A program made the translations under genes and the position numbers. A stretch of DNA of 64,000 nt from an uncultured Prevotellaceae bacterium (GTDB lineage Bacteria > Bacteroidota > Bacteroidia > Bacteroidales > Muribaculaceae): contig ONJX01000005.1 of the NCBI GenBank assembly GCA_900318255.1, positions 38,659 to 102,658 on the forward strand, given 5' to 3'. The notes below the pieces were generated by a model. It did not search any database. It had not been told where the DNA came from and saw nothing but the letters and a program-made list of their open reading frames with translations. Positions 23,059 through 45,865 of the stretch are shown here, piece after piece (position 1 is the stretch's first letter; each line of letters begins with the position of its first letter).

Positions 23059-23066
23059 TATCTTTG
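23059..23066 (+). promoter_or_regulatory. -7 element of the apbE-like gene
   Basis: TATCTTTG, 36 bases before the ATG at 23103. It overlaps the first codon of the longer frame at 23064, which supports the shorter start. Confidence 0.5.
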
Positions 23067-23102
23067 TGTGAATTTTGTGTGGCAATAATAATTGAGACAA
23101 AA

Positions 23103-26423: not shown

Positions 26424-26431
26424 TATATTTG
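26424..26431 (+). promoter_or_regulatory. -7 element of the nuo-atp block
   Basis: TATATTTG fits TAnnTTTG. No clear TTTG at the -33 position. The leader to the nuoA ATG would be about 196 bases, with a CTCCC-TGGCA-GGGAG hairpin at 26464-26478. This is the only plausible promoter seen before the block. Confidence 0.5.
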
Positions 26432-26633: not shown

Positions 26634-27002
26634 ATGGTTTTACTCGGTATTCAAAGTACTACATTGGCTGTCACAGCGGTGCTCACGGGCGTGGTCCTGG
26701 TCTTTGCCGCTTTGTTGATAGCCAGGCTCATTGGTCCTCGCAGCTACACTAAGAGGAAGGGTGAGACCTATGAATGTGGTATCCCAACTCGTGGCGAGAG
26801 CATGGCGCAGTTCCATGTGGGGTATTATTTGTTTGCTATCCTCTTTCTCATGTTTGATGTGGAGACAGTGTTTCTGTTTCCCTGGGCAGCAATCTCTAAG
26901 AGCTTGGGCACTCAAACCCTGGTGGCTGTAGGCACATTTTTATTTATCTTAGTTCTGGGCTTAGCCTATGCCTGGAAGAAAGGAGCCTTGAGATGGAAGT
27001 GA
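26634..27002 (+). CDS. nuoA: NADH-quinone oxidoreductase subunit A
   Basis: A 122-residue membrane subunit of complex I with three transmembrane helices. The conserved loop between helices 1 and 2 holds YECGIPTRG and the second helix [11 protein letters not shown], both typical of NuoA, which faces the quinone site with NuoH, B and D. The ATG at 26634 begins the first helix. The stop lies 10 bases inside nuoB. First gene of the co-directional nuo-atp-nuo series. Confidence 0.95.
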
Positions 27003-27646
27003 AAATAAAGAGCATGAAGCATGAGGACTTCAAGGACAATGAGTATATCGACAAGCTCGTTGAGGAGTTGAACGCCAGCGGCACTAATGTTGTCGTGGGC
27101 AAGCTTGACCAGTTGATAAACTGGGGCATCAGCAACTCGCTGTGGCCTTTCTGCTTTGGCACCAGCTGCTGTGCCATAGAGTTCATGTGCTTGGGCGCCG
27201 CCCGCTATGACATGGCGCGCTTTGGCTTTGAGGTGGCCCGCAACTCCCCCCGCCAGGCCGACTATATCATGTGCCAGGGCACCATCACTTACCGCATGGC
27301 ACCAGCCTTGAAGCGCCTCTATGAGCAGATGGCAGAGCCAAAATATGTGATTGCCTGTGGCGCGTGCACCGTGAGCGGCGGTCCTTTCAAGAACAGCTAC
27401 TGTGTGGTTAAAGGCGTTGACGAGATTATCCCAGTAGATGTGTATCTGCCTGGATGCCCACCTCGACCCGAGGCTATGTTCTATGCCCTGATGCAGCTTC
27501 AGCGCAAGATTAAGGTGCAGAAGTTCTTTGGTGGTGTCAACCGCAAGCAGAAACGCAAGGAGTTTTTTGAGGCCCAGCAGGCGGCACCTGCCGCCATTGA
27601 GCAGGCACAAGAACCGGCAATCGAGAGTTTGAACAATCAAGAATAA
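26993..27646 (+). CDS. nuoB: NADH-quinone oxidoreductase subunit B
   Basis: A 217-residue peripheral subunit that carries the last iron-sulphur cluster (N2) before the quinone. The ligands are Cys59-Cys60 in [11 protein letters not shown], Cys126 in GACTVSGG and Cys156 in [10 protein letters not shown]. The C-terminus has an extra Gln/Ala/Glu-rich tail of about 35 residues after the normal end of the domain. The start overlaps nuoA by ten bases. Confidence 0.95.
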
Positions 27647-27665
27647 GAAATACACATTTATATAT

Positions 27666-29315
27666 ATGGCAGATCTCAAAGAACAAATCGGCAACTTGTG
27701 TCCCGAAGCTCAGTGTGACGACAGCGGTGAGTTCCTGCTGGTGACAGTGCCCGATGCCAAGTGGCATGCTCTGGCTACCGCACTTAAGAACGAGATGCAC
27801 TTCGATTACCTCACTGCCCTGGTGGGTGTTGACTGGAAAGAGGAGCTGGGTGTGATGTACTATCTCACCAACACCGAGACCCAAGACATGATTCACGTTA
27901 AGGTGGCAACTACTAACCGTGAGCAGCCTCGCCTGCACAGCGTGAGCGACTTGTGGGCGGTGGCCAACTATCAGGAGCGCGAGGTCTATGACTTCTATGG
28001 CATAGAGTTTATCAATCATCCCGATATGCGTCGCTTTTTCTTGCGCAACGACTGGGTGGGATACCCCTTGCGCAAAGACTATGACGACAGCCCCGAGAAA
28101 AATCCCATCCGCCTCGACGACGAGCAGAACGAGGACGACACTTATCGCCTTGTAGAAGACGAGAATGGCAACGTCACCCGCATCGACGGCAAGGTCTTTG
28201 GCGACGATGAATATGTCATCAACGTGGGCCCGCAGCATCCCTCCACTCATGGTGTGATGCGCTATCGCGCCTCTATCGAGGGCGAGCTGGTCAAGAAAGT
28301 TGACGTGGTGAGCGGCTACATCCACCGCGGCATCGAGAAGATGTGCGAGAGCCTCACCTATCCGCAGACCCTGCTTTATACTGAGCGTCTTGACTATATG
28401 TCGGCTCACATCAACCGCCACTGCCTGTGCCTGTGCATTGAGAAGGCGATGGGCCTTGAGGTGCCACGCCGCGCCGAGCTCATTCGCATGACCATGGATG
28501 AGCTCATGCGACTGTCGAGCCACTTGCTCAGCTACGGCTGCTTGACGATGGACCAGGGTGCTACCACGGCATTCTTCTATGGCTTCAGGGAGAGAGAGCT
28601 GATTTACGACATCTTCGACAAGACTTGCGGCGCCCGCATGTCGATGAGCTACATGACCATTGGTGGTGTGGTGGCCGATGTTCACCCCGACTTTATTAAA
28701 GACGTGCGCCACTGTTGCGATGTGGTCACCGAGAAGCTCAAAGAGTATCACAAGCTCTTTAGTGGCAACGTGATAGCCGTTAACCGCATGAAGGGTGTTG
28801 GAATCCTGGGCAAGGAAGATGCCATCAATTATGCCATTACTGGTCCCTCGGGACGTGCCAGCGGCTGCCACTGCGACGTGCGCAAGTGCCATCCCTATTC
28901 TTTATATAATGAGGTGGACTTCGACGAGGTTATTCTTGAGAATGGCGACTCGATGGATCGCTACATGGTGCGCATGAAGGAGATGGAAGAGTGCATCAAG
29001 ATTTTGCGTCAGTGCTGCGACATGCTCGAGCAGGAAGGCATCGAGGGTGAGTACATCGCCAAGGTACCCAAGCTCATCAAGCTACCCGCCGGTCACTGGT
29101 ATCAGCAGGTGGAGGGCAGTCGTGGCGCCTTTGGAGTATATCTCGAGAGCGACGGCGACCCCAAACCTTTCCAGAAGCCTTACCGCCTCCACTTCCAGAG
29201 TCCTTGCTTCAACCTAGTGGGTGTCGTTGACCTCACCTGCAAGGACAACCTCATTGCCGACCTTATCACCATTACAGCGTCGATCGACTATGTGATTCCC
29301 GACATCGACCGATAA
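27666..29315 (+). CDS. nuoCD: NADH-quinone oxidoreductase subunit C/D fusion
   Basis: A 549-residue fusion of NuoC (about 1-140, with YDFYGIEFINHPDMRRFFL) and NuoD (from about 186, starting NVGPQHPSTHGVMR), joined by a 40-residue acidic linker. NuoD lines the quinone pocket. The NuoD part is somewhat shortened at the quinone His-loop compared with hydrogenase-type relatives but keeps its His residues. Fusions of C and D are known in Bacteroidota and gamma-proteobacteria. It sits between nuoB and nuoH. Confidence 0.95.
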   Translation: MADLKEQIGNLCPEAQCDDSGEFLLVTVPDAKWHALATALKNEMHFDYLTALVGVDWKEELGVMYYLTNTETQDMIHVKVATTNREQPRLHSVSDLWAVANYQEREVYDFYGIEFINHPDMRRFFLRNDWVGYPLRKDYDDSPEKNPIRLDDEQNEDDTYRLVEDENGNVTRIDGKVFGDDEYVINVGPQHPSTHGVMRYRASIEGELVKKVDVVSGYIHRGIEKMCESLTYPQTLLYTERLDYMSAHINRHCLCLCIEKAMGLEVPRRAELIRMTMDELMRLSSHLLSYGCLTMDQGATTAFFYGFRERELIYDIFDKTCGARMSMSYMTIGGVVADVHPDFIKDVRHCCDVVTEKLKEYHKLFSGNVIAVNRMKGVGILGKEDAINYAITGPSGRASGCHCDVRKCHPYSLYNEVDFDEVILENGDSMDRYMVRMKEMEECIKILRQCCDMLEQEGIEGEYIAKVPKLIKLPAGHWYQQVEGSRGAFGVYLESDGDPKPFQKPYRLHFQSPCFNLVGVVDLTCKDNLIADLITITASIDYVIPDIDR

Positions 29316-29372
29316 GGAGTGAGAAACAAGAGAAATTAAAACAGATTATCAATACACATTATTATAATAGTT

Positions 29373-30461
29373 ATGTTTAACTTTAGTGTAGTCACCGAGT
29401 GGTTTAATAACCTGTTGACGGTATCGGCTGGGATGCCGCAATGGCTGGCAACCACCATAGAGTGTGTGATAATAGCAGTGTTGCTGTTGCTGGCCTACAC
29501 CGTCCTGGCAATGTTCTACATCATGTATGAGCGATGGGTGTGCGCCTGGTTCCAGTGCCGCCGTGGTCCACTGCGTGTGGGACCGTGGGGCTCGCTGCAG
29601 ATTTTTGCCGACGTGATTAAGATGCTCATCAAGGAAGTGATAGGTTTGTGGAAGACCGATAATTTCCTTCACAAGCTGGCGCCTTACTTCGTGCTGGTGG
29701 CATCGGTGGTAGTCTTTGCCTGCCTGCCGTGGGGCAAGGGGATGCAAGCTATAGATTTCAACGTGGGCATCTTCTTCATGACAGCCGTGTCGTCGCTTGG
29801 CGTTATTGGCATCTTGCTTGCCGGCTGGTCGAGTAACAGCAAATACACGCTCATCGGCGCCATGCGCAGCGGAGCGCAGATGATCAGCTACGAGCTCTCG
29901 ATAGGCATCGCCATGCTCACCATTGTGTGCTTGGCTGGCACCATGAGTGTGACAGGGCTTGTTGAGGCGCAGCAGAATGGCTGGTTCATCTTCACTGGCC
30001 ACATTCCCGCTATTATCGCCTTCATCATCTATGTGATTGCCGCTACTGCTGAGACCAACCGTGGTCCCTTCGACCTTCCCGAGGCCGAGCATGAGCTCAC
30101 CGCTGGTTACCACACCGAGTATTCGGGTATCCATTTCGGTTTCTTCTATCTTGCCGAGTACCTTAACCTGTTCATCGTCTCGGGTATCGCCTCGCTGCTC
30201 TTCTTGGGTGGCTGGATGCCATTGCATGTGCCGGGGTGGGAAGGCTTCAACGCCGTGATGGACTATATCCCGTCAACCATCTGGTTCCTGGGCAAGGCGA
30301 TATTCGTGTCGTTCATCATCATCTGGTTCAAGTGGTCGTTCCCACGCGTGCGCATCGACCAGTTGCTGGCACTCGAGTGGCGCTACCTCATGCCCATAGG
30401 CTTGGTGAACCTGGTGGTGATGGCAGTCTTGGTGAGCCTGGGCTGGCATTTTGCAGGATAA
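29373..30461 (+). CDS. nuoH: NADH-quinone oxidoreductase subunit H
   Basis: A 362-residue membrane subunit with eight predicted helices that links the quinone cavity to the pump. Family marks are RRGPLRVGPWGSLQ near the N-terminus, ETNRGPFDLPEAEHELTAGY (the quinone-site loop) and FVSFIIIWFKWSFPRVRIDQ near the end. Its stop is 44 bases before the atpD start, with no terminator between. In ordinary nuo operons nuoI would follow; here the ATP synthase genes do. Confidence 0.95.
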   Translation: MFNFSVVTEWFNNLLTVSAGMPQWLATTIECVIIAVLLLLAYTVLAMFYIMYERWVCAWFQCRRGPLRVGPWGSLQIFADVIKMLIKEVIGLWKTDNFLHKLAPYFVLVASVVVFACLPWGKGMQAIDFNVGIFFMTAVSSLGVIGILLAGWSSNSKYTLIGAMRSGAQMISYELSIGIAMLTIVCLAGTMSVTGLVEAQQNGWFIFTGHIPAIIAFIIYVIAATAETNRGPFDLPEAEHELTAGYHTEYSGIHFGFFYLAEYLNLFIVSGIASLLFLGGWMPLHVPGWEGFNAVMDYIPSTIWFLGKAIFVSFIIIWFKWSFPRVRIDQLLALEWRYLMPIGLVNLVVMAVLVSLGWHFAG

Positions 30462-30502
30462 TAAATGAATAAAAGTAAATACAGCATAATAAATTCTCGT
30501 GA

Positions 30503-32008
<1,506 letters not shown>

Positions 32009-32067
32009 GAAACATTAATAGTTCTATATGTTGCGATGACATCGCATCATACTAAACAAGAAACACT

Positions 32068-32301
32068 ATGACACTGAAAATCATATCGGCCGAGAAGATA
32101 GAATTTGAGGGCGAGGTAGAGCAAATCACCTTGCCAGGGGCATTAGGCTCATTTCAGATTCTTAACAACCATGCGGCGCTAATGTCGTCGCTAGTTCCTG
32201 GCACCATGACTTTTGTTCATGGCGAGACCACCACTCATCAAGAGATAAAAGGTGGCATTGTCGATGTGAAGGACAATGTGGTGAGTGTGTGTCTTTATTA
32301 A
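32068..32301 (+). CDS. atpC: ATP synthase F1 subunit epsilon, short form
   Basis: A 77-residue subunit made only of the N-terminal beta-sandwich (PGALGSFQILNNHAALMSSL), without the C-terminal helical hairpin that inhibits ATP hydrolysis in E. coli and Bacillus. Short epsilon subunits are usual in this phylum. It follows atpD by 59 bases and is followed 32 bases later by atpB. The missing helical domain means inhibition of reverse ATP hydrolysis, if any, works in another way. Confidence 0.92.
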   Translation: MTLKIISAEKIEFEGEVEQITLPGALGSFQILNNHAALMSSLVPGTMTFVHGETTTHQEIKGGIVDVKDNVVSVCLY

Positions 32302-32333
32302 CAACAAGAACTGGATTATTGTAATTCTCTTTT

Positions 32334-33425
32334 ATGAAGAAAGCAATAACGATAATAATAGCACTGGTGATACTGGCGCTCATGGCGTGGGGCTACTCGC
32401 AGTCGGCAAGCCATCATGGGCATGACGGCGGTAAGGTCAATCCCAAGGAGACCATCTTTGAGCACTTGGGCGACACTTACGGCTGGGAAGTGCCATTCTC
32501 TCACAGCAAGAAGATAGCGCTGCCCATCATCGTCTTTGACAAGGGTGGAGCGCTGCATTGCTTCCTCTCGAGCCGTGTTACCGGTGGCGAGACCTATCAA
32601 GACGGCGACGCCAGCTTCAAAATATCGACCGATGCCGAGGGAGGCTACAAGGGCAAGCTCGTGCAGGTGGTTGATGGTGGCGAGTACCGTCCGTGGGACT
32701 TCTCCATCACCAAGAATGTGCTGGGCCTGCTCATTGCTGCTGCCCTGGTGATATGGATGGCGATGAGCCTGCGCAACTGGTACAAAAAGCAAGGCATGAA
32801 AGGTCCCAAAGGGGCAAAGGGAATGCTCGAGATGGTCATCGAGTTTGTCTATACCGACACCATCAAGCCCATCATGGGCAAGGAAGCTCCCAAGTATGGC
32901 CCTTATCTGCTCACAGCGTTCTTCTTCATCCTGACGATGAACTTGCTGGGCTTGATAGTGATATTCCCGGGTGGCGCTAACCTCACCGGCAATCTTGCCG
33001 TGACCATGGTGCTGGCACTTGCTACCTTCCTCATCACCAACCTCACTGGCACCAAGCATTACTGGAAGGACATCTTCTGGCCCGATGTGCCCATGGCTCT
33101 CAAGTGCCCCGTGCCCATGATGCCGTTGATTGAGTTCCTGGGCATCTTGACCAAGCCATTGGCACTGATGGTGCGTCTGTTTGCCAACATGCTCGGCGGC
33201 CACATGGTGGTGCTGGTGCTGATATTGCTCATCATGATTTTCACCGAGATGTTTGGAGCTGCGGTAGGTGCTGGCACAGCCGTTATATCGGTGCTGCTGT
33301 CGCTGTTCATGCTCCTTCTCGACACATTGATCAGCTTCATCCAGGCCTTTGTGTTCACCCTGTTGTCAACCATCTTCATCTCGATGGCTCACATTCATGA
33401 GGAGCCAAAACCCGTGACAGAATAA
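32334..33425 (+). CDS. atpB: ATP synthase Fo subunit a
   Basis: A 363-residue membrane subunit that forms the proton half-channels. The essential arginine is Arg281 in LALMVRLFANMLGGH. An N-terminal extension of about 120 residues contains a signal-like helix and a soluble region with SASHHGHDGGKVNPKETIFEHLGD, as known from other Bacteroidota a subunits. The small gene often found between atpC and atpB in Bacteroides (AtpI/Z-like assembly factor) is absent here: only 32 bases separate the two genes. Confidence 0.95.
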   Translation: MKKAITIIIALVILALMAWGYSQSASHHGHDGGKVNPKETIFEHLGDTYGWEVPFSHSKKIALPIIVFDKGGALHCFLSSRVTGGETYQDGDASFKISTDAEGGYKGKLVQVVDGGEYRPWDFSITKNVLGLLIAAALVIWMAMSLRNWYKKQGMKGPKGAKGMLEMVIEFVYTDTIKPIMGKEAPKYGPYLLTAFFFILTMNLLGLIVIFPGGANLTGNLAVTMVLALATFLITNLTGTKHYWKDIFWPDVPMALKCPVPMMPLIEFLGILTKPLALMVRLFANMLGGHMVVLVLILLIMIFTEMFGAAVGAGTAVISVLLSLFMLLLDTLISFIQAFVFTLLSTIFISMAHIHEEPKPVTE

Positions 33426-33455
33426 TAAAAAATAAAACAAATAATAACTACTTAA

Positions 33456-33713
<258 letters not shown>

Positions 33714-33738
33714 TATTCATTTAAAACAAGGTTTTTAG

Positions 33739-34236
33739 ATGGAACTGTTTAAGCCTGAATTTGGCCTGGTGTTTTGGATGTTTCTGGCATTTGCGTGCCT
33801 GTATTTCATCCTGGCAAAATGGGCTTGGCCTTTTATCATCAAGAGCATGGACGACCGTGCAAGCTTGATAGATAAAGGTGTGGCCTATGCTCAGGAGGCA
33901 AAGTCGCAACTCGACAATGCCAAGGCTCAGGCCGACGCACTCGTTGCCGACGCCCGCAAGCAACAGGCCGACATTTTGCGCGACGCAGCCAAGATGAAAA
34001 CCGAAATCATCGAGCAGGCTAAGGCCGAGGCTGCTGTCGAGGCGAAGAAAGTGACCGATGCCGCTCAAGTGTCGATAGAACAGGCACGCAAGGAGAGTGA
34101 GCATCAGTTGCGCCAGGACGTGGGTGCCTATGCGCTCCAGATTGCCGAGCAGGTGATACGCCGCAACATGAGCGACGACAAGGCTCAGCAAGACCTGGTG
34201 AAGAAGCTACTTAACGAGGTTGAATCTAAGAATTAA
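33739..34236 (+). CDS. atpF: ATP synthase Fo subunit b
   Basis: A 165-residue stator subunit: one N-terminal transmembrane helix (FGLVFWMFLAFACLYFILA) followed by a long alanine- and charged-rich coiled coil (Lys, Asp, Glu, Gln, Ala repeats) that reaches up to delta. The gene begins 25 bases after atpE and ends 8 bases before atpH. Confidence 0.95.
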   Translation: MELFKPEFGLVFWMFLAFACLYFILAKWAWPFIIKSMDDRASLIDKGVAYAQEAKSQLDNAKAQADALVADARKQQADILRDAAKMKTEIIEQAKAEAAVEAKKVTDAAQVSIEQARKESEHQLRQDVGAYALQIAEQVIRRNMSDDKAQQDLVKKLLNEVESKN

Positions 34237-34244
34237 TCAACACG

Positions 34245-34784
34245 ATGAACGACGGACTTATTCCCAACCGATATGCCAAGGCACTCTATAAGCTCTCGCA
34301 GGAGCGGGGCGACACTGCTTCCATCTACCAAGAGATGAAGCAGCTTGCTGCCGCCTATGCTGCCGAGGCGGGCTTGAAGAAGGCGGTCAACAACCCCTTC
34401 TTGCCCACTGGCGACAAGCTCAAGCTGCTGTGTGCGGCATCGGGAGCACCAAGTGACGGCACATCGGCGCGGTTCATGGAGTTGGTTATCAAGAACAACC
34501 GCATCGACTTCATGCGTGCCATCGCTCTAGCTTTCATGAAGCAATATCGTGAGCTCAATGGCATCGCCAGGGTCGAGATTGTCACTGCCACGCAACTTGG
34601 CGATGACGAGATTAATGCTATCATCGATGTGGTGAAAGGGCAGTTCGTCGGCAAGACCATTGAGCTGACCAAGAGGGTCGATGCCGACCTAATTGGTGGC
34701 TTCACGGTAGATGTTGATTCGCGCGTGCTCGACGCATCGGTGAAAAATCAATTAGAAAAATTGCGTTTAAAACTCCTAAGTTAA
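34245..34784 (+). CDS. atpH: ATP synthase F1 subunit delta
   Basis: A 179-residue stator connector (OSCP). The N-terminal six-helix bundle ([18 protein letters not shown]) binds alpha, and the C-terminal part ([30 protein letters not shown]) binds b. Spaced 8 bases after atpF and 10 before atpA. Confidence 0.94.
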
Positions 34785-34794
34785 TAAGAGTGAG

Positions 34795-36372
34795 ATGATA
34801 AACCCAAGTGAAATATCCGACATACTGAAACAGCAACTGAGCGACATCGAGAGCAAGGTGTCGTTTGAGGAGGTGGGAACAGTGCTTGAGGTGGGCGACG
34901 GTGTGGCTCATGTCTATGGACTCGAGAACGTTGAGGCCAACGAGCTCGTTGAGTTTGACAATGGTGTCACTGGCGTTGCCATGAACCTTGAGGAGAGCAA
35001 CGTGGGCGTGATCTTGATGGACAAGGTAGATAGCGTTGCCGAGGGCATGAAGGTGCGCCGCACCGGTGAGATTGCGTCAATTCCGGTGGGCGAGGGACTG
35101 CTAGGGCGTGTTATCAACGTGCTGGGCGAGCCGCTCGACGGCAAGGGTCCCATCGAGGGCGAACTCGTGCGTCTGCCCCTGGAGCGCAAGGCCCCGGGCG
35201 TTATCTTCCGCCAGCCTGTGAACCAGCCTCTGCAAACCGGCCTCAAGGCTATCGACTCGATGATTCCCATAGGCCGTGGCCAGCGTGAGCTTATCATCGG
35301 CGATCGTCAGATTGGCAAGACCGCCATTGCTGTAGATACTATAATCAATCAAAAGTCGGGCTACGAAGCGGGCAAGCCAGTCTATTGCATCTATGTGGCC
35401 ATTGGCCAGAAGGCTTCGACAGTGGCTGCGCTGGTCAACCAGCTCAACCAACATGGAGCCATGCCTTATAGCGTGGTGATTGCCGCTACTGCTGCCGACT
35501 CGGCGTCGATGCGCTACTACGCGCCATTTGCCGGCGCTGCCATTGGCGAGTATTTCCGCGACACTGGTCGCGATGCTCTCGTAGTCTATGACGACCTCTC
35601 AAAACAGGCTGTCGCCTATCGTGAGATTTCGCTCATCCTCAAGCGCCCCTCGGGCCGTGAGGCTTATCCTGGCGATATCTTCTACCTGCACAGCCGCTTG
35701 CTCGAGCGTGCCGCCAAGATTAATGAGAACCAGAAGGTGGCCGAGGCTATGAACGACCTCCCCGAGGCCCTCAAGGGCAAGGTTAAGGGTGGTGGCTCGC
35801 TGACCGCGCTTCCCATCATTGAGACTCAGGCTGGCGATGTGAGTGCCTATATCCCCACCAATGTGATTTCTATTACCGATGGCCAGATTTACCTAGAGAC
35901 GGCGTTGTTCAACAACGGCATCCGTCCGGCGGTGAACGTGGGTATCTCGGTGTCGCGTGTGGGTGGTAACGCTCAAATCAAGGCTATGAAGAAGGTGGCA
36001 GGAACGTTGAAGATTGCCCAGGCGCAGTTCCGCGAGCTGGAGTCGTTCACCAAGTTTGGTGGCGACATCGACCCCGTTACCGCGCGCACCATCGACACTG
36101 GTCGCAAGAATGAGCGCCTGCTCGTTCAGCCGCAATACAAGCCTGTTCCCGTCGAGGAGCAGATTGCGGTGATCTACTGTGGCGTGAACGGCCTGCTCGA
36201 GAGTGTGCCCATGGACAAGGTGGCAGAGTTTGAGCAGCTGCTCATCCAGTACTTGCACGCTAAGCACCAAGCCGATGTGCTCGATGTGCTCAAGAGCGGC
36301 AAGATCGACGACGACGTGATGGCCAAGCTCAAGGATGCTGCGGCCGAGATTTCAGGAAAGTATCAAGCTTGA
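34795..36372 (+). CDS. atpA: ATP synthase F1 subunit alpha
   Basis: A 525-residue non-catalytic nucleotide-binding subunit. Walker A GDRQIGKT is at 169-176, with [13 protein letters not shown] before it; the arginine finger lies in [11 protein letters not shown]. It begins with the usual N-terminal helix ([17 protein letters not shown]). 10 bases after atpH, 16 before atpG. Confidence 0.97.
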
Positions 36373-36388
36373 TAAAAGTTGATTATTA

Positions 36389-37276
36389 ATGGCAACACTT
36401 CGAGAACTTAAAGGACGCATTGGCTCGGTAGCCTCTACCGAGAAGACCACGAGCGCGATGAAGATGATTTCGTCGGCCAAGATGCACAAGTTCACAGGCA
36501 TGGTGCAGCGCCTCAAACCCTATCGTGGCATGGTGCGCAACGTGCTCAGCCACTTACTTGTCACCGACCAGGAGTTTTCCTCGCCATTGATAGAGACGCG
36601 CGATGTCAACAAGGTGGCTATTGTGGTATTTGGCAGCGACGACGGCTTGTGTGGGGCTTATAACATCAACATCTTCAAGCAACTGCTCACCGCTATCGAC
36701 GAGCTGCGCAAGCTCTATGGCAAGGGCGTGACGATTACCGTTATTCCTATTGGCAAGAAGATGGTCAAGGCCGTAGCCAAGATAGAGGGTGGCGGCATCA
36801 AGGTGCAGAATGTTGACTACATGAGCACCCGCAGCACCATGGAGCAGCTCTCTGACTTCACCGAGATGTTGAGGAGTGGCTTTGTTGACCATGTGTTTGA
36901 CCGTGTGGATATCGCTTACATGAGATTTGTCTCTACAAGCCGTCAGGTCATGCACCATGAGCAGCTGCTGCCGCTGAGTGCCGACGCGCTGGCTCAGGAC
37001 ATCGACCCGAAGGAGGCGTGCAGCCCGTGCATCTTTGAGCCCGATGCTAACAGCATCTTCAACAGCGTGCTGCCGCTGCACCTGCGTGCCACGATGCAAG
37101 AGGTGTTTGTGTCGAGTTCGGCATCGGAGCAAGCCTCTCGTGTGATGGCGATGCAGATTGCCAGTGACAATGCTGCCGATTTGCTCGAACAGTTGAACCT
37201 GGAATACAACAAGCTGCGCCAGCAAAGTATCACCACCGAGCTGCTCGACATCTTGGGTGGCCAAGTGGAGAGATAG
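36389..37276 (+). CDS. atpG: ATP synthase F1 subunit gamma
   Basis: A 295-residue rotor shaft. The N-terminal helix (LRELKGRIGSVASTEKTTSAMKMI, quoted in part) and the C-terminal ELLDILGGQ pair form the coiled coil in the alpha3beta3 ring; the SDDGLCGAYNINIFK motif is diagnostic. It closes the atp set. A gap of 144 bases holding one strong hairpin separates it from nuoI. Confidence 0.95.
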   Translation: MATLRELKGRIGSVASTEKTTSAMKMISSAKMHKFTGMVQRLKPYRGMVRNVLSHLLVTDQEFSSPLIETRDVNKVAIVVFGSDDGLCGAYNINIFKQLLTAIDELRKLYGKGVTITVIPIGKKMVKAVAKIEGGGIKVQNVDYMSTRSTMEQLSDFTEMLRSGFVDHVFDRVDIAYMRFVSTSRQVMHHEQLLPLSADALAQDIDPKEACSPCIFEPDANSIFNSVLPLHLRATMQEVFVSSSASEQASRVMAMQIASDNAADLLEQLNLEYNKLRQQSITTELLDILGGQVER

Positions 37277-37308
37277 CTCACTGGGCAGCCCAAGCGAGAT
37301 AATAAAAC

Positions 37309-37352
37309 GTGCCACGAAGCGAATCTTTCATGCCTGTTCGCTTATGGCGCAC
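37309..37352 (+). other. Hairpin without T tract between atpG and nuoI
   Basis: GTGCCA-CGAAGCGAA (37309-37323) pairs with TTCGCTTA-TGGCGCAC (37337-37352) in a long stem with small mismatches. No run of T follows, so it does not look like a simple terminator; it could act in RNA processing or in setting atp versus nuo mRNA levels. Confidence 0.5.
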
Positions 37353-37420
37353 AAGATAAACCTAAGGCATGAGTTATATTAGTGTCTAGAAAGTAGGCAC
37401 ACCACCGACAAAACATAATT

Positions 37421-37969
37421 ATGAACATCAAGGAGTATTTCTCTTCAATATTTAAGGGTGCTCACAGCCTCATCAAGGGTATGGAGGTGACAGGTAAAGA
37501 ACTCTTTACCAAGAAGGTTACCGAGCAATATCCCGAGAATAGGGCAGAGCTTGAAATTCCCGAGAGATTTAGGGCCACGTTGCAGTTCGTCTATGACGAG
37601 GAGGGTTATCACAAGTGCATCGCCTGCAAGACGTGCGAGCGCAACTGCCCCAATGGCACCATCCAGATTACCACCCGCATGGTTGACCTGCCCAATGGCA
37701 AGAAGAAGATGAAGCTCGACAAGTATATTTATGACTTGGGAAGCTGCACCTTCTGTGGACTGTGTGTCACTAGCTGCCCTACCGATGCCATCAAGTTCTC
37801 TAACGACTTTGAGCAAGCGGTATTCCGCCGCGAGGCGCTTGTCAAGCAGCTCAATTACCTGCCCGAGAAAGAGAAACCCGCTCCTGAGCCCGCTGCCAAG
37901 CCCGCTGCCGCCGCACCTGCTAAGGCCGCCGATGTTCAGTCACCTAACGCAGATAAAAAAGAAGAATAA
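37421..37969 (+). CDS. nuoI: NADH-quinone oxidoreductase subunit I
   Basis: A 182-residue ferredoxin-like subunit with two 4Fe-4S sites: Cys66, 69, 72, 76 in CIACKTCERNCPNG (N6a or b) and Cys109, 112, 115, 119 in CTFCGLCVTSCPTD. It passes electrons to NuoB. The tail after residue 150 is rich in Ala, Pro and Lys. It resumes the nuo series after the ATP synthase genes. Confidence 0.95.
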   Translation: MNIKEYFSSIFKGAHSLIKGMEVTGKELFTKKVTEQYPENRAELEIPERFRATLQFVYDEEGYHKCIACKTCERNCPNGTIQITTRMVDLPNGKKKMKLDKYIYDLGSCTFCGLCVTSCPTDAIKFSNDFEQAVFRREALVKQLNYLPEKEKPAPEPAAKPAAAAPAKAADVQSPNADKKEE

Positions 37970-37970
37970 T

Positions 37971-38483
37971 ATGGATTCAATTGGAAATGTAATCATGTAT
38001 TTCGTGTTCGCACTGGCGATCATCGTTTTCTCGGTGCTCGCAGTGACAACGAAGAAGATTTTGCGCTCAGCAACCTATCTGCTGTTTGTGCTTTTGGCTA
38101 CTGCCGGCATCTACTTCCAGATGGATTATGAGTTCTTGGGTGCTACACAAATTGCCGTTTATGCCGGTGGTATAGTCGTCCTGTTTGTGTTTGCTATCAT
38201 GCTCACTCACAAGCCGGGCGAGGACTCCGAGGCGCTCAACTCACATCGCAGAGCCCTAGGCCTGACGGCATGTGGGCTGGGAGTGCTGGTGTGTGGAGCT
38301 GCGCTGTTCAGCTTCATGAAGATAAGAGATGCCGTGGAATTGGCGACAAGTGGCGATTATACAGTCAATCAGCTAGGCGCCGACTTGCTTAGCAACAAAG
38401 GCTATCTGTTGCCCTTCGAGGCACTGAGCGTGCTGTTGCTGGCATGTATCATTGGTGCGATAGTTATAGCCCGTAAACGTTAA
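37971..38483 (+). CDS. nuoJ: NADH-quinone oxidoreductase subunit J
   Basis: A 170-residue membrane subunit with five helices. The second and third helices hold FLGATQIAVYAGGIVVLFVF, a hallmark of NuoJ, and the glycine-rich turn seen in the helix with the pi-bulge. It starts at 37971 directly after the nuoI stop; the frame is open much further upstream but those codons lie inside nuoI. Confidence 0.93.
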   Translation: MDSIGNVIMYFVFALAIIVFSVLAVTTKKILRSATYLLFVLLATAGIYFQMDYEFLGATQIAVYAGGIVVLFVFAIMLTHKPGEDSEALNSHRRALGLTACGLGVLVCGAALFSFMKIRDAVELATSGDYTVNQLGADLLSNKGYLLPFEALSVLLLACIIGAIVIARKR

Positions 38484-38505
38484 AAGAAGAAAGGAGAGAA
38501 GACAG

Positions 38506-38817
38506 ATGAAACTATCATTATTAATGTATCTCATTCCGAGCCTCATCATGTTTGGCTGCGGTGTTTACGGGTTCATCACCCGCAAGAATATGATTGCGAT
38601 GTTGATATCGCTGGAGTTGATGCTCAATGCTGTTGACATCAATTTTGCGGTCTTCAATCGTTACCTCTTCCCCAATGGCCACGAAGGCATGTTCTTCAGC
38701 CTCTTTGCCATAGCCATTGCCGCTGCCGAGACTGCTGTGGCCATTGCTATCATCATCAACGTGTATCGAGTGGCTAAGAAGGTGGATATTAACCAAATTA
38801 CTAAAATGAAATTCTAA
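38506..38817 (+). CDS. nuoK: NADH-quinone oxidoreductase subunit K
   Basis: A 103-residue antiporter-like small membrane subunit with three helices and the conserved Glu in LISLELMLNAVDINF and in AAAETAVAIAI, part of the central hydrophilic axis. Follows nuoJ by 22 bases and precedes nuoL by six. Confidence 0.94.
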   Translation: MKLSLLMYLIPSLIMFGCGVYGFITRKNMIAMLISLELMLNAVDINFAVFNRYLFPNGHEGMFFSLFAIAIAAAETAVAIAIIINVYRVAKKVDINQITKMKF

Positions 38818-38823
38818 ACAGTT

Positions 38824-40806
38824 ATGGAAATATTAAATAGTACAATCTACGTTCTTGCCATACCCCTGTTCATGTTCCTGTTCTTGGGGCTTGTGGGCAC
38901 CAAGATGCCTCGCAAGATTACCGGTGTGATAGGTGTGCTGGGAATGGCTGTGACTACAGTGTTGGCCTATGCCATAGCGTTTACTTATTTCTTTGGTGAA
39001 GGGCCACAGAAGATTGATGGTGTGTATCAGCAATTAGTGCCCACCGACTGGACGTGGCTCTCGTTTTATGCCGACAAGCTGGTGGTGCGACTGGGCGTGC
39101 TGCTCGACCCCATCTCGGCGATGATGCTGGTGGTGATTTGCACCGTCTCGTTCATGGTTCACCTCTATAGCTTGGGCTACATGAGTGACCACGACGGCAA
39201 CCCTGAGAAGGGTTTTCAGCGTTACTATGCCGACTTGGCCTTGTTCACCTTCTCGATGCTCGGACTGGTTGTCTCTACCAACATCTTCCAGATGTTCATC
39301 TTCTTTGAGATGGTGGGTGTTTCGTCCTACCTCCTCATTGGGTTCTACTATGGCCTGCAACCTGCCAACCATGCGTCGAAGAAGGCGTTTATCGTCACTC
39401 GTCTTGCCGACTTGTTCTTCTTGATTGGCATCTTGATACTGTCTTATTATACTAAGACATTTGATTTCATCAATATCATGGGCAAGAATGGCGGTGAAGT
39501 GATGAACGCGTTCACCAGTGCTCAAGGTCTCACATTTATGGGCTGCTCGGTGACTGGCTGGGCGTTGACCTTCATCTTCATTGGTGGTGCCGGTAAGAGT
39601 GCTATGTATCCACTTCACATCTGGCTCCCCGATGCTATGGAGGGTCCCACTCCCGTGTCGGCACTCATCCATGCTGCAACTATGGTTGTGGCAGGTGTGT
39701 TCTTGGTGGCTCGCATGTTCCCGCTATATGTGCTGGAGCAGGGTGCCATGGACATCATCTGCGTGGTGGGAGCGTTCACGGCATTCTATGCCGCCGCTAT
39801 TGCCTGCACTCAGAGCGACATCAAGCGTGCGCTGGCGTTCTCTACAATATCGCAGATTGCCTTCATGATGACGTCACTGGCCGTTAGCTCGGCCGATGGC
39901 GCGCTCATTGGCGGTCACGAGGCTGGTTTGGGCTACATGGCGTCGATGTTCCACTTGTTCACCCACGCTATGTTCAAGGCGTTGCTCTTCCTCTGTGCTG
40001 GTGCCATCATCCATGCCGTTCACAGCAACGAGAACAGCAAGATGCACGGCTTGCACAAGTTCATGCCCATCACCAGCATAGCATTCCTCATAGGTTGCTT
40101 GGCAATCGCCGGTATTCCTCCCTTTGCCGGCTTCTTCAGCAAGGACGAGATACTCGTGGCTTGCTATGAGAAGGGCCTGGGCTGGGGCTTGTGGATGAGT
40201 ATGGTGGCTGGCATGACAGCGTTCTACATGTTCCGCATCTACTACCTCATATTCTTCTGGAAGAAGCATGAGGTACACGGTGAGCACGCTCCAAAGGACC
40301 AGCCTTGGACCATGACAGTGCCACTGATTGTGCTGGCGCTCATCTCGTGCGTGGCAGGGTTCGTGCCCTTTGGCGACCTGGTGACTTGGAATGGCCAGGC
40401 ACTAGAGACTCACATGAACTGGCCGGTGGCTGGTGCCAGTGTTGCCATCGCTCTTGTGGGCATAGGTCTTGCAACGGTGATGTATCGCAAGGAAAACCCG
40501 CTTCCCGACAAGCTGGCAACTATGTTCAAGGGCCTGTGGACCGCAAGCTACAAGCGCTTCTACATGGACGAGCTTTATCAGTTCATCACCCACAAGATTA
40601 TCTTCCAGGGTATCAGCAAGCCCATAGCGTGGTTTGACCGCACCATCATCGACGGATTCTTCAATCTGCTTGGCAACGTCACCAACAGTGCCTCGTGGGG
40701 CATCCGCAAGATGCAGTCGGGCAGCGTGCAGGGTTATGTCTCGTATTATATCATTGGTGCGATGCTGCTTGCAGCCATCACCGGTGTTGTGGTTCTGTGC
40801 ATTTAA
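38824..40806 (+). CDS. nuoL: NADH-quinone oxidoreductase subunit L
   Basis: A 660-residue antiporter-like proton pump with about 15 helices and a lateral C-terminal helix. MVGVSSYLLIGFYY, WLPDAMEGPTPVSALIHAATMV and FSKDEIL mark the channel residues (Glu, Lys, His). The length is normal for NuoL. The long C-terminal helix that ties NuoL to NuoM and N appears in the last 100 residues. Confidence 0.95.
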   Translation: MEILNSTIYVLAIPLFMFLFLGLVGTKMPRKITGVIGVLGMAVTTVLAYAIAFTYFFGEGPQKIDGVYQQLVPTDWTWLSFYADKLVVRLGVLLDPISAMMLVVICTVSFMVHLYSLGYMSDHDGNPEKGFQRYYADLALFTFSMLGLVVSTNIFQMFIFFEMVGVSSYLLIGFYYGLQPANHASKKAFIVTRLADLFFLIGILILSYYTKTFDFINIMGKNGGEVMNAFTSAQGLTFMGCSVTGWALTFIFIGGAGKSAMYPLHIWLPDAMEGPTPVSALIHAATMVVAGVFLVARMFPLYVLEQGAMDIICVVGAFTAFYAAAIACTQSDIKRALAFSTISQIAFMMTSLAVSSADGALIGGHEAGLGYMASMFHLFTHAMFKALLFLCAGAIIHAVHSNENSKMHGLHKFMPITSIAFLIGCLAIAGIPPFAGFFSKDEILVACYEKGLGWGLWMSMVAGMTAFYMFRIYYLIFFWKKHEVHGEHAPKDQPWTMTVPLIVLALISCVAGFVPFGDLVTWNGQALETHMNWPVAGASVAIALVGIGLATVMYRKENPLPDKLATMFKGLWTASYKRFYMDELYQFITHKIIFQGISKPIAWFDRTIIDGFFNLLGNVTNSASWGIRKMQSGSVQGYVSYYIIGAMLLAAITGVVVLCI

Positions 40807-40836
40807 TCAACGGTTCTAAATAAAACAGTAACGATT

Positions 40837-42357
40837 ATGGAAATATTCTCTAATATACTTATTTATTTCGTGATAATCCCCGTGCTCACTCTTGCTGGCC
40901 TGGCGCTGACCAAGAACAAGGGCATTGATGCGATTAGGGCCGTTGCCGTGACTGGTGCCACAGCACTTGTGGCCCTGGCTATTTATCTAGTGTATATTTT
41001 CCTCAAGGCTCGCGGGCTGGGCAATACCGACGACATGATATTGCAGACCAGCGTTACATGGTATGAGCCACTAAATATAAAACTCGCACTGGGCGTGGAT
41101 GGCGTGTCGGTGGTGATGATACTGCTCTCGGCGTTTATCGTCTTTGCTGGCGTCTTTGCTTCGTGGAAGATGGACCCACTGCCCAAGCAGTTCTTCTTGT
41201 GGTTCTTCTTGCTCTCGACAGGCGTGTTTGGCTTCTTCATCAGCGTGGACTTGTTCACCATGTTCATGTTTTATGAGGTGGCGCTTATCCCTATGTACCT
41301 GCTCATTGGTGTGTGGGGCAGTGGCAACAAGAACTACAGTGCCATGAAGCTCACACTCATGCTCATGGGTGGCTCGGCATTCCTGATGCTTGGCATCATT
41401 GGCATTTATTTCCACTCGGCTCCCGAGGGACAGCCACTCACCATGAACCTGCTTGAGATTGCCAAGAACGATGCCATTCCTCACAACTGGCAGATGTATC
41501 TGTTCCCGCTCACCTTTGTGGGCTTCGGCGTGCTGGGTGCTATGTTCCCGTTCCACACTTGGTCGCCCGATGGTCATGCCAGCGCACCCACTGCGGTGTC
41601 GATGCTTCACGCTGGTGTGCTCATGAAGCTGGGAGGTTATGGCTGCTTCCGCATTGCCATCTTCCTCATGCCTTTTGCTGCTCAGCAGCTGGGATGGATA
41701 TTCTTGACCTTGACGGGCATCAGCATCGTGTATGGCGCCTTCAGTGCCTGTGTGCAGACCGACCTCAAGTATATCAACGCTTACTCGTCGGTGAGCCACT
41801 GTGGCATGGTGCTCTTTGCCATCCTGATGTTTAACCACACCGCCATGACTGGTGCAGTGTTGCAGATGCTCTCTCACGGCTTGATGACCGCCTTGTTCTT
41901 TGCCTTGATTGGTATGATTTACGGTCGCACCCACACTCGCGACATCCGCGAGATGGGTGGCTTGATGCACATCATGCCTTACCTGGGCGTGGGATATGTG
42001 ATTGCCGGTTTCGCCTCGCTGGGTCTGCCGGGCTTGAGCGGTTTTGTTGCCGAGATGACGATATTCGTTGGCTCGTTTGAGCATCAGGATATGTTCCGCC
42101 GCGTGCTCACCATTGCCGCCACCACGTCGATTGTCATCACTGCGGTCTATATTCTGCGCGTTGTGGGCAAGCTGCTCTATGGCGCGGTGCAGAACGAGCA
42201 TCATCGCTCGCTCACCGATGCCGACGCCACCGAGCGCATCTCTACTGCCACTCTCATCATTTGTGTGGCAATCATCGGCTGTTTCCCCAATTTCTTCATC
42301 AACATCATCCGCGACAGCTTCGATCCTGTGGTGAAGGCTTTGACAAGTGTTATGTAA
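40837..42357 (+). CDS. nuoM: NADH-quinone oxidoreductase subunit M
   Basis: A 506-residue antiporter-like pump subunit with 14 helices. FYEVALIPMYLLIGVWG and FHTWSPDGHASAPTAVSML are the channel motifs; the LKYINAYSSVSHCGM segment holds the conserved Lys/His of the broken helices. Follows nuoL by 30 bases. Confidence 0.95.
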   Translation: MEIFSNILIYFVIIPVLTLAGLALTKNKGIDAIRAVAVTGATALVALAIYLVYIFLKARGLGNTDDMILQTSVTWYEPLNIKLALGVDGVSVVMILLSAFIVFAGVFASWKMDPLPKQFFLWFFLLSTGVFGFFISVDLFTMFMFYEVALIPMYLLIGVWGSGNKNYSAMKLTLMLMGGSAFLMLGIIGIYFHSAPEGQPLTMNLLEIAKNDAIPHNWQMYLFPLTFVGFGVLGAMFPFHTWSPDGHASAPTAVSMLHAGVLMKLGGYGCFRIAIFLMPFAAQQLGWIFLTLTGISIVYGAFSACVQTDLKYINAYSSVSHCGMVLFAILMFNHTAMTGAVLQMLSHGLMTALFFALIGMIYGRTHTRDIREMGGLMHIMPYLGVGYVIAGFASLGLPGLSGFVAEMTIFVGSFEHQDMFRRVLTIAATTSIVITAVYILRVVGKLLYGAVQNEHHRSLTDADATERISTATLIICVAIIGCFPNFFINIIRDSFDPVVKALTSVM

Positions 42358-42393
42358 CAATAGTGTTGAATTAAAAATATACAAGATATAATT

Positions 42394-43863
42394 ATGAATT
42401 TAGATTATTCTCAGTTTTTAATGATGCCTCAGGAGTTGGGCCTGCTTGCAGTGTTCTTGCTCGTGTTCTTATATGACACTTTCATGCCAAAATCCACTCA
42501 GCAGGGGTTGCCACTCTTTGCCACCATAGCATTTGGCATCTTCATGATATTTGGTTTCTTTCCTGTTAACGAAGGCTTGATATTTGAAGGCATGTTCCAG
42601 GCCGACAAGGCCACATGGGCCATTAAGAACATCCTCAACATGGGCACCTTTATCGTGCTCTTGCAGGCGGTGAAATGGGCTAATAGCGACTTTGTGGCAG
42701 TGCGCCGCGGCGAGTTCTATGAGCTCATCCTGCTCACCCTCTTTGGCATGTACCTGATGATATCGGCCCGCCACTTCCTGGTGTTTGTCATTGGTCTCGA
42801 GACCGCCTCGTTGCCACTTGCCACTCTTGTGGCCTTTGAGAAGAAGCACTACGAGAGCCATGAGGCAGCTGCAAAATATGTGCTAACAGCGGTGTTCTCG
42901 TCGGCAATTTTGCTTATGGGACTCTCGTTTGTGTATGCTCTCTCGGGAGGAAATCTCTATTTCAACCAGCTGGCAACCTTCCTGATGGGTGAGAAGTCAT
43001 TGCTGCTCATCGTTGCACTGGCATTCGTGATTGCCGGTATTGGCTTCAAGCTCTCGCTGGTGCCTTTCCACCTGTGGACCGCCGACGTTTATCAAGGTGC
43101 TCCCACCATGGTCACCAGCTATCTGTCGGTAATCAGCAAGGGCTCGGCGGCATTTGCCTTCTTCATCATTCTGGTGCAGGTGTTTGGTTCGGCCTATGCC
43201 GAGGTGTGGCAGTGGATGCTCTATGCCGTGATTATCATCACCATCACTGTGGGTAACCTCTTTGCCATACGCCAGCGCAATCTCAAGCGCTTCCTGGCGT
43301 TCTCGTCAATCTCGCAGGCTGGCTACATTATGCTTGGTGTGATTGCCGCCAATGCCGTGGGCATGGCCTCGATGATGTATTACATTCTGGTCTATATCTT
43401 CAGTAACCTCGCCGCCTTTGGCGTGATTGCTGTGATAGAGCGCTGCACTGGCAAGGTGACTACCGACGACTACAACGGCCTGTTCAAGACCAACCCATGG
43501 CTTGCCTTTGTGATGATGCTTGCCATGTTCTCGCTTGGCGGTATTCCTCCATTTGCCGGCTTCTTCAGCAAGTTCTTCATCTTTGTGGGCGCTGCTCACA
43601 CGGGCAGTGTGGCAATCTATGTGCTCGTCCTCATAGCGTTGATTAACACCATCATCTCGCTCTACTACTACCTGCTGGTGGTGAAGGCAATGTTCATCCG
43701 TCAGGACGAGTGCGTTATACCCACCCTGCGCTCGCACTGGACCGAGAAGGCAGGTTTGATAATCTGCACCCTGGGCATCATCCTCATTGGCCTAGTGAGC
43801 TGCATCTACACAAGCCTGAGTGACATCGCCGCCACAACAGGCGAAGTGTTCACGATGATATAA
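42394..43863 (+). CDS. nuoN: NADH-quinone oxidoreductase subunit N
   Basis: A 489-residue antiporter-like pump subunit, the last of the nuo series. VIGLETASLPLATLVAFEK, KLSLVPFHLWTADVYQGAPT and FLAFSSISQAGY are diagnostic of NuoN. A terminator follows 33 bases downstream, closing the block that begins at nuoA. Confidence 0.95.
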   Translation: MNLDYSQFLMMPQELGLLAVFLLVFLYDTFMPKSTQQGLPLFATIAFGIFMIFGFFPVNEGLIFEGMFQADKATWAIKNILNMGTFIVLLQAVKWANSDFVAVRRGEFYELILLTLFGMYLMISARHFLVFVIGLETASLPLATLVAFEKKHYESHEAAAKYVLTAVFSSAILLMGLSFVYALSGGNLYFNQLATFLMGEKSLLLIVALAFVIAGIGFKLSLVPFHLWTADVYQGAPTMVTSYLSVISKGSAAFAFFIILVQVFGSAYAEVWQWMLYAVIIITITVGNLFAIRQRNLKRFLAFSSISQAGYIMLGVIAANAVGMASMMYYILVYIFSNLAAFGVIAVIERCTGKVTTDDYNGLFKTNPWLAFVMMLAMFSLGGIPPFAGFFSKFFIFVGAAHTGSVAIYVLVLIALINTIISLYYYLLVVKAMFIRQDECVIPTLRSHWTEKAGLIICTLGIILIGLVSCIYTSLSDIAATTGEVFTMI

Positions 43864-43895: not shown

Positions 43896-43927
43896 AAGGA
43901 GAAGCATCAATTGCCTCTCCTTTTTTC
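43896..43927 (+). terminator. Terminator at the end of the nuo-atp block
   Basis: AAGGAGA (43896-43902) and TCTCCTT (43916-43922) with an inner GC pair, then TTTTTC. It is the first clear terminator seen after nuoA. Confidence 0.85.
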
Positions 43928-43965: not shown

Positions 43966-44074
43966 TTGCCGCAATAAGAAATAAAGCTTAGTGAATTGTC
44001 ATTAATTTTACTATAAAGAGTAATTATGGTTTGTTAAGACTCTATTTATTAGGCTATTGATACTATTAGAATTT

Positions 44075-45865
44075 ATGAAAGCATTGAATGCCTTATTGGT
44101 GATATTGTTATTGCAGGTTGTCGCAATAACATCTAGTGCCACTGATTTTGTGGCTATGGACTATTATTTTGACAATAGTAAGGTGCAATTTCCGGTTGTG
44201 AAGATGATAGTTGGTGACACCACAAATTGCCGCACTATAGTGCTCGACATGGACACAATGGGGCATGATGATTTGTGGAAAGCGTCGTTTAAAAAGGCGA
44301 TGCACGATGTTGACTTCTATGGCTTTATCAATCAAGACTTGGGTGCCGACACCATTAACCTTTCACCGCTTCAGTTGATCGATAGCCTAGAGTGTGAATT
44401 GGGCTCCAGTTTCAGGCACACCGCCCTCAAAGAGACCGACGAGTGGGGACATGTTTATGCTTACTGGGTTTTCTGTCCGGATTACAACATTAACAATAGC
44501 GACGGATACTGGCGGCCAATCGACAGCTATGGCATCACTCCATCGAGGAGTGTTCCTCTTGTTTATATTAATACCGAGAATTCTCGCCCCATAATTGACA
44601 AAATTCAATACATCGCCGGCACACTATGGATTGATAACTGCGGCATTGAAAACTGCTGTTCGTTAGGGAGTGAACAGGAACCACTAGCCATTGAGATAAA
44701 AGGGCGCGGCAACTGGACTTGGGTAACATCGCACAAGAAGCCTTATAAAATTAAATTTGCGACAAAACAATCTCCTTTGGGACTTGATAAGAGTAAGCAT
44801 TTTATTCTGAAACCCGACTGTCAAGATTGGAGCGGTTATTTGCGTAATGAAACCGGATTTGAAGTGAGCCGTCTTTTAGAAATGCCTTACACGCCACGGC
44901 AATACCCTGTTGAGGTGATGCTCAACGGAGAATATATAGGTTTGTATTTCTTATGTGAGAAAATACGTGTGGAGTCGGGCAGGGTAGAAGTGGTGGAGCA
45001 AGAGGACTATGAAACCAATCCCTATAATATCACTGGTGGTTGGCTCTTGGAGTCAAGGGGCTATGAGCATCCCATCTATTGGCAATTTGAGAATAACGAC
45101 CCCCAACGGGTGTTTTATGCTTTTGAATCTCAATCACCAGAATTGTTCTCCGAAGCGCAGCAGCAATACATATCCTCATTCATTAGCAAAACCGACAGCT
45201 GCATTTTTGTTGCCGACAAAACCGACCAAGGATGGGAGCAATACATTGACATTAACTCGCTGGCAAGGTTTTATGTGATACATGAGGTGATGGACAATAT
45301 CGAGGCCTTTGATGGCAGTCTGTTTCTCTATAAGGACTGGGGTGAGAATGAAAAGTTTCATTTTGGGCCAGTATGGGACTTTGACAACAGCAGCATGAAT
45401 ACGACCAACAGCAAGTTTATTTACCAGTATGACAACTTCAATTTGTTTTGGATTGAAGAGATATGCAAATTTCCGAGGTTTGAGCAGGAGGTGAGCTTAA
45501 TATGGAAGGAATTTAATGAAAAAGATATCCTTCAGAAAGCAAAGCTGCATGCTCATCAATGGAGGACGTTAATCAATGGTGCTGAGCAGCAAGATGCTAA
45601 GCGCTGGCGCACTTATGCTAGTGTACACTCTGCCGATGCCCCACAAGCCTATCTCGACATGATCGACCACAAGGTAAAGTGGCTTGATAAGCAATGGGGA
45701 GATGGCAGTGGCATAACCACAGTAACAGCTAGTGAAAAGGTGGTGATTGGTGTTAAGTTCTATAATCTTCAAGGCGTGCCAAGCGACAACCCCTTTGAAG
45801 GCTTTAACATCAGGGTGACGACCTACAGCGACGGCTCGCGATCGAGTGAAAAGGTGGTGCGGTAA
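44075..45865 (+). CDS. CotH kinase family secreted protein
   Basis: A 596-residue protein with signal peptide (LLVILLLQVVAITSSA) and a CotH-type atypical kinase fold: GRGNWTWVTSHKKPYKIKF near residue 225, FHFGPVWDFDNS near 430 for Mg-ATP, and HEVMDNIEAFDGSLFLYKD before it. In Bacillus CotH phosphorylates spore coat proteins; in Bacteroidota members are cell-surface proteins of unknown target. The C-terminal 60 residues (VKFYNLQGVPSDNPFEGFNI) resemble T9SS type A-like tails, so it is likely exported to the surface. ATG at 44075 begins the signal peptide. Confidence 0.85.
   Translation: MKALNALLVILLLQVVAITSSATDFVAMDYYFDNSKVQFPVVKMIVGDTTNCRTIVLDMDTMGHDDLWKASFKKAMHDVDFYGFINQDLGADTINLSPLQLIDSLECELGSSFRHTALKETDEWGHVYAYWVFCPDYNINNSDGYWRPIDSYGITPSRSVPLVYINTENSRPIIDKIQYIAGTLWIDNCGIENCCSLGSEQEPLAIEIKGRGNWTWVTSHKKPYKIKFATKQSPLGLDKSKHFILKPDCQDWSGYLRNETGFEVSRLLEMPYTPRQYPVEVMLNGEYIGLYFLCEKIRVESGRVEVVEQEDYETNPYNITGGWLLESRGYEHPIYWQFENNDPQRVFYAFESQSPELFSEAQQQYISSFISKTDSCIFVADKTDQGWEQYIDINSLARFYVIHEVMDNIEAFDGSLFLYKDWGENEKFHFGPVWDFDNSSMNTTNSKFIYQYDNFNLFWIEEICKFPRFEQEVSLIWKEFNEKDILQKAKLHAHQWRTLINGAEQQDAKRWRTYASVHSADAPQAYLDMIDHKVKWLDKQWGDGSGITTVTASEKVVIGVKFYNLQGVPSDNPFEGFNIRVTTYSDGSRSSEKVVR

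Follow-up and report, generated by a model that had tools for sequence, protein, structure and literature searches.

An eight-gene ATP synthase cluster between nuoH and nuoI in the complex I locus of Muribaculaceae and related Bacteroidales

Background

In a 64,000-nucleotide (nt) stretch of DNA from an uncultured member of the Bacteroidales (assembly GCA_900318255.1, contig ONJX01000005.1, positions 38,659 to 102,658; hereafter the window), a complete set of F-type ATP synthase genes, atpDCBEFHAG, lies inside the genes for respiratory complex I (nuo). The closest described system is that of S24-7 (“Ca. Homeothermaceae”, now Muribaculaceae), for which passages of Ormerod et al. 2016 (PMC4936053) state the same arrangement: a complex I with 11 of 14 subunits, NuoEFG being absent, and F-type ATP synthase genes inside its locus. 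According to the same passages, Barnesiella and Coprobacter are the nearest characterized relatives of S24-7, and in genome H5 both enzymes were lost together. The nuo operon of Bacteroides fragilis 638R also lacks nuoEFG, and no NADH:quinone activity of its Nuo complex was found, as stated in passages of PMC7002350; it differs from the locus described here in that its ten nuo tags, BF638R_0850-0841, are consecutive, so that atp genes would not be expected among them. For Prevotella bryantii, a passage of PMC6560451 proposes that a headless complex contributes to the conversion of a sodium gradient into a proton gradient, on which a proton-driven ATP synthase would run, an idea that would suit a joint operon.

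The arrangement is therefore already known as a published family trait, and a search of the open-licence literature found no other paper on it and none for Barnesiella or Coprobacter. In this work, we add a wider clade of carriers, the pattern of a promoter word along the locus, and a conflict between the histories of the atp and nuo genes. These points, together with the exact border of the insertion and its presence in Barnesiella and Coprobacter relatives, go beyond the passages of Ormerod et al. that describe the locus. We consider it probable that the eight-gene ATP synthase cluster and the complex I genes around it, which lack nuoEFG, are co-transcribed as one series of 18 genes, starting at a predicted promoter ahead of nuoA and ending at a predicted terminator that follows nuoN.

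Results and discussion

Layout and gene content of the locus

The locus comprises 18 genes, all on the + strand, at 26634-43863, and every gene was named by NCBIfam. Ten complex I genes, nuoA-B-CD-H and nuoI-J-K-L-M-N, flank the complete atp set. The preliminary description of this DNA, made from its letters alone, had placed the atp genes in the order atpD-C-B-E-F-H-A-G and in one direction between nuoH and nuoI, with a 44-base gap between nuoH and atpD and with both sites of entry at gene borders, leaving the genes undamaged; all of this was borne out, each of the 18 genes being found where it had been placed. In the features given below, TANNTTTG is what we take to be the -7 promoter word of Bacteroidota; 15 papers were found in which this word occurs alongside mention of Bacteroides and promoters.

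26424-26431, +, promoter-like -7 word TATATTTG (TANNTTTG type), about 200 bases upstream of the nuoA ATG
26634-27002, +, nuoA; ATG at 26634, open reading frame opening upstream at GTG 26559
26993-27646, +, nuoB
27666-29315, +, nuoCD fusion
29373-30461, +, nuoH
30462-30505, no strand, left joint nuoH-atpD, 44 nt, without TANNTTTG
30506-32008, +, atpD (beta)
32068-32301, +, atpC (epsilon), 77 amino acids (aa); in Pfam, N-terminal beta-sandwich domain only
32334-33425, +, atpB (a)
33468-33713, +, atpE (c)
33739-34236, +, atpF (b)
34245-34784, +, atpH (delta)
34795-36372, +, atpA (alpha)
36389-37276, +, atpG (gamma)
37277-37420, no strand, right joint atpG-nuoI, 144 nt, without TANNTTTG and without Rfam match
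37421-37969, +, nuoI
37971-38483, +, nuoJ
38506-38817, +, nuoK
38824-40806, +, nuoL
40837-42357, +, nuoM
42394-43863, +, nuoN
43896-43926, +, likely intrinsic terminator after nuoN, from reading of the sequence

All eight subunits of an F-type ATP synthase (alpha, beta, gamma, delta, epsilon, a, b and c) are encoded at the locus. Helix 2 of the c subunit contains IEG and, when read by eye, has no Gln at the place expected for a Na+ ligand. The complex I genes are of the 11/14-subunit type, with nuoE, nuoF and nuoG missing from the locus. The phrase “respiratory proton pump” used in the preliminary description needs care, because NuoEFG are missing and the B. fragilis counterpart is stated, in passages of PMC7002350, to be without NADH:quinone activity. 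A second copy of either enzyme was ruled out, the genome having a single nuoH and a single atpH, and so was an RNA element in the locus, which has no Rfam match at gathering scores.

The sole match of the genome to PF01512 (51K) is located on another contig (L160; G000 contig C11, 133612-134127; such codes are our own labels). It falls in a frame of 635-642 aa that is followed by a ferredoxin-like frame, and the protein resembles, by eye, a hydrogenase-type NADH module more than NuoF.

Occurrence in the family, order and phylum

The family survey covered 99 genomes from 30 genera, the window's genome counted in, with nuoH found in 98 and atpH in 97. By coordinates, the two genes lie 3.7-4.3 kb apart on the same strand, with atpH downstream, in 87 of the 99. 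In the remaining 12 genomes they are on different contigs (9) or one gene is missing (3); the contigs of all 12 were read, and in 10 a joint, either nuoH-atpD or atpG-nuoI, can be seen where the contig is broken, the contigs of the other two (G045, G047) ending ahead of any joint and so not being judgeable. The arrangement is thus real and family-wide in this survey: at least one joint is present in 97/99 genomes, and separation of the two clusters was seen in none. In all 20 loci of this kind (members) that were fetched, the gene order is identical and both joints measure at most 135 nt, with nuoA not called in three and nuoK in one. The AtpA protein of the window is 97% identical to those of L110/L114 and 88.6% to that of Ca. 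Sodaliphilus aphodohippi, and the genome clusters with Muribaculum and Heminiphilus in the nuo and atp trees described below; we infer Muribaculaceae as the family of the host.

The survey of the order comprised 158 genomes with 109 family codes, of which 103 have a match to PF00146 and 141 have atpH; coordinates were compared by eye and close pairs were then checked. Among the matches listed, adjacency was found in 13 genomes from seven families (f1, f18, f24, f54, f61, f80, f99), and no further case was seen outside these seven. The window's own family is among the seven; another is Barnesiella-like (f99, AtpA 98% to Barnesiella sp. An22) and a third Coprobacter-like (f54, AtpA 89-94% to a Coprobacter metagenome-assembled genome, MAG), and the position of these two genera as the nearest characterized relatives of S24-7 in the passages of PMC4936053 fits the wider clade. 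Elsewhere in the order, both clusters share a contig on opposite strands in G193 and G180 (nuoH to atpH 20 kb and 68 kb, respectively) and are more than 1 Mb apart in G217 and G240. The preliminary description had regarded the arrangement as unusual for Bacteroidetes, a novelty to be given up if it proved common and already described; since it is both, having been in print since 2016, the novelty does not stand.

In a survey of the phylum, likewise compared by eye (138 genomes; PF00146 match in 124, atpH in 138), no case except the window itself appeared among the matches listed, which do not show where nuoH lies in G351 or where some second copies are. A candidate second case, G276, was rejected: its atp genes share a strand with nuoH and lie about 12 kb upstream of it, but open frames on the opposite strand intervene. 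Against too firm a reading of these surveys stands the fact that draft contigs limit claims of absence.

Named genomes were obtained by an AtpH-alignment scan of GTDB genomes, from which the best 80 of 575 loci were taken; these were ranked by likeness to a Barnesiella-like protein, so that the counts should not be taken as a census. Of the 80 loci, 42 have both joints, 6 only the left one, 5 only the right one and 27 neither. On re-reading, four of these 27 (L094, L097, L130, L139) are contigs too short for a joint, and other joint-negative loci, e.g. those of Butyricimonas synergistica and Prevotella bivia, hold a standalone atp cluster. Both joints are present in Barnesiella sp. An22, Muribaculum sp., Heminiphilus faecis and Ca. 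Sodaliphilus aphodohippi, among others, and the right joint in a Coprobacter MAG (L083). Two further carriers, a “Clostridium sp.” MAG (L106) and a “Barnesiella sp.” MAG (L089), group with Muribaculaceae in the atp tree, and their titles look mislabelled.

Uninterrupted loci, gaps and standalone clusters

In each of the 31 fetched Bacteroidales nuo loci that lack the insertion, nuoI comes after nuoH with no other nuo or atp gene in between, at a spacing of -19 to 202 nt, or 476 nt in L178. This last locus (G222:C108:4956-5903), from a non-member genome, has a nuoH-type match that reads through one TGA. Over 60 distinct members, the median gaps are 51 nt for nuoH-atpD and 57 nt for atpG-nuoI, slightly wider than the widest internal medians of 44-50 nt. 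In L117, a nuoL-nuoM gap of 626 nt was noted in an otherwise tight locus.

The standalone atp clusters that begin with atpD have the same internal order as the embedded one. Nine standalone clusters with a wide atpC-atpB gap were inspected; in seven (L063, L077, L137, L145, L149, L181, L195), but not in L067 and L120, the gap contains an open frame of 119-140 aa, which from its place and size looks like an atpI candidate. The cluster of Prevotella bivia (L149), located outside nuo, is of this kind, with a 140-aa frame between atpC and atpB. That of Butyricimonas synergistica (L087), also outside nuo, resembles the embedded type and has no room for such a frame: the atpC-atpB spacing is 8-10 nt in three Butyricimonas-type clusters, and the embedded median is 11 nt with a maximum of 93 (n=60).

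Predicted transcription unit

Two properties expected of a single operon were found, namely one strand with short gaps (exception L116) and, at 200 nt, a promoter word before the first gene only. The word TANNTTTG was sought in the 200 nt upstream of genes in the 60 distinct members, with 20 or 30 base-composition shuffles of each stretch as the control. It precedes nuoA in 33 of 51 members (expected 5.6-6.1), nine of the 60 being left out for want of nuoA or of upstream sequence, and it occurs at chance level upstream of the embedded atpD (6/60, expected 4.5-5.3) and of nuoI (3/60, expected 1.9-2.1). Upstream of standalone atpD, the word was found in 18 of 27 cases (from 31 clusters; expected 3.2), and upstream of standalone nuoA in 10 of 27 (expected 3.1), or 11 of 27 within 300 nt (expected 5.4). 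Because the word is in excess before nuoA and before standalone atpD but at chance level before embedded atpD and nuoI, the embedded atp cluster has likely lost its own promoter and would be read from that of nuoA. A fuller form of the promoter, TANNTTTG with TTTG 17-23 nt further upstream, is absent before embedded atpD (0/60) and before member nuoI (0/60). The guess of a single transcript, made in the preliminary description, gains in silico support from this contrast.

At the other end, as that description had also noted, a terminator is visible only after nuoN: a perfect 7-bp stem (43896-43902 with 43916-43922) encloses a 13-nt loop and is followed by TTTTCTT. A simple terminator scan listed nothing on the + strand in the two joints of the window, and listed the site at the nuoN end on the - strand only; in this region the scan was no better than shuffles (17 sites, 16.5 expected). 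A generic sigma-70 scan (22 sites, 16.5 in shuffles) was not used as evidence, and the Bacteroidota word was taken instead.

Several observations weigh against this reading. The stretches compared are unlike, since the 200 nt upstream of embedded atpD are mostly nuoH coding sequence, and the rows of the promoter-word counts are relatives, not independent events. The fuller form precedes only 10 of 51 member nuoA and 3 of 27 standalone atpD (expected 0.3 and 0.0), and the nuoH-atpD gap of L116 is 707 nt. In addition, TANNTTTG lies within 300 nt upstream of nuoI in 8/60 members against 2.6 expected, so that a weak internal promoter ahead of nuoI is possible in some members. This last count, and a right joint that with 144 nt offers room enough for a promoter, are what might be expected if nuo and atp were merely adjacent, each transcribed from promoters of its own in the upstream coding region or the joint, a frozen accident with no regulatory meaning. 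We regard such separate units as unlikely, given that TANNTTTG shows its excess at nuoA and standalone atpD and none within 200 nt upstream of embedded atpD or nuoI, that the joints of the window hold no terminator-like site on the + strand, and that neither joint exceeds the 135 nt noted above in any of the 20 fetched members.

In the co-transcription model, a standalone atpDCBEFHAG cluster would have entered the nuo genes once, at the border of nuoH and nuoI, in an ancestor of the families concerned, and its promoter would have disappeared afterwards. With a shared transcript, the complex that charges the membrane and the enzyme that draws on this charge would be supplied in step.

Histories of the nuo and atp genes

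The first trees were built from concatenated proteins with up to 17 outgroup genomes, the nuo tree being without two members and two outgroups because of missing genes. Member nuo genes form one clade, both in this tree (27/27 rows, FastTree support 1.0) and in a second one made from 25 of 42 rows (14/14 member rows; Shimodaira-Hasegawa-like approximate likelihood ratio support, SH-aLRT, 99). In the first atp tree, members also form one clade (29/29, support 0.99), with G193 just outside. In G193 (L060-L061), standalone atp and nuo clusters lie about 11 kb apart on one contig in convergent orientation, the atp genes being of the member type and the nuo genes not.

The case for a single insertion is weakened by the atp trees to which named standalone clusters were added, in which the clusters of Butyricimonas, the S18_Bin4 MAG and G193 share a long branch with the members: they fall inside the members with 51 rows, form an unresolved fork with 38 of the 51, and stand beside the members with support 72 in a tree of 22 of the 51 under a simpler model. 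The atp genes thus do not show one insertion with no later exit. Repeated independent insertions in several families at the identical border would agree with atp trees in which the members are not firmly grouped apart from the Butyricimonas type; we nonetheless judge them very improbable, as the members that were read share the same border, internal order and tight atpC-atpB spacing and, with SH-aLRT 99, a single nuo clade. An assembly artefact, with two clusters misjoined, can practically be dismissed, since beyond the draft state of the window genome (58 contigs) nothing speaks for it and the joint recurs in the family genomes, including a one-contig (G092) and a three-contig (G057) assembly, while named genomes, Barnesiella sp. 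An22 and Heminiphilus faecis among them, have both joints.

In the nuo tree, G193 falls with the standalone families, and forcing it together with the members was rejected (approximately unbiased test, p-AU 7.6e-05). For atp, forcing the Butyricimonas type together with G241, G106 and Prevotella bivia was rejected (p-AU 1e-37), this group having been chosen after the nuo tree had been seen. By these trees, in which G193 alone represents the nuo history of the Butyricimonas lineage, the atp cluster and the nuo genes differ in history for the Butyricimonas-type lineage, and the conflict suggests horizontal transfer, in either direction, as the simplest reading. Tentatively, and with slightly less than even confidence, we propose that a whole atp cluster of the kind known otherwise from Butyricimonas-like genomes, lacking the atpC-atpB frame, entered the nuo operon in an ancestor of the group of Muribaculaceae, Barnesiella and Coprobacter, where it replaced the native standalone cluster (or that it later left this operon for the Butyricimonas line), and that ATP synthase thereby came under the control of the complex I promoter.

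Significance of the arrangement

In these common gut bacteria, the genes for the respiratory complex and for ATP synthase are fixed in one DNA stretch, so that a single mutation or regulator would affect both and their joint loss is possible. The arrangement provides a simple marker by which a group of Bacteroidales families can be recognized, and it is a clear case of a core operon inside another, for which loss of the inner promoter would be a testable consequence. Two points deserve follow-up: the conflict between the atp and nuo histories, and the putative loss of the inner promoter.

Neighbouring genes

Upstream of the nuo locus, the window encodes an ApbE family protein, likely a flavin transferase (23064-24107). 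Beyond the terminator lies a gene for a CotH-family protein of 602 aa (44057-45865), and a DUF362 protein is encoded at 47711-48673.

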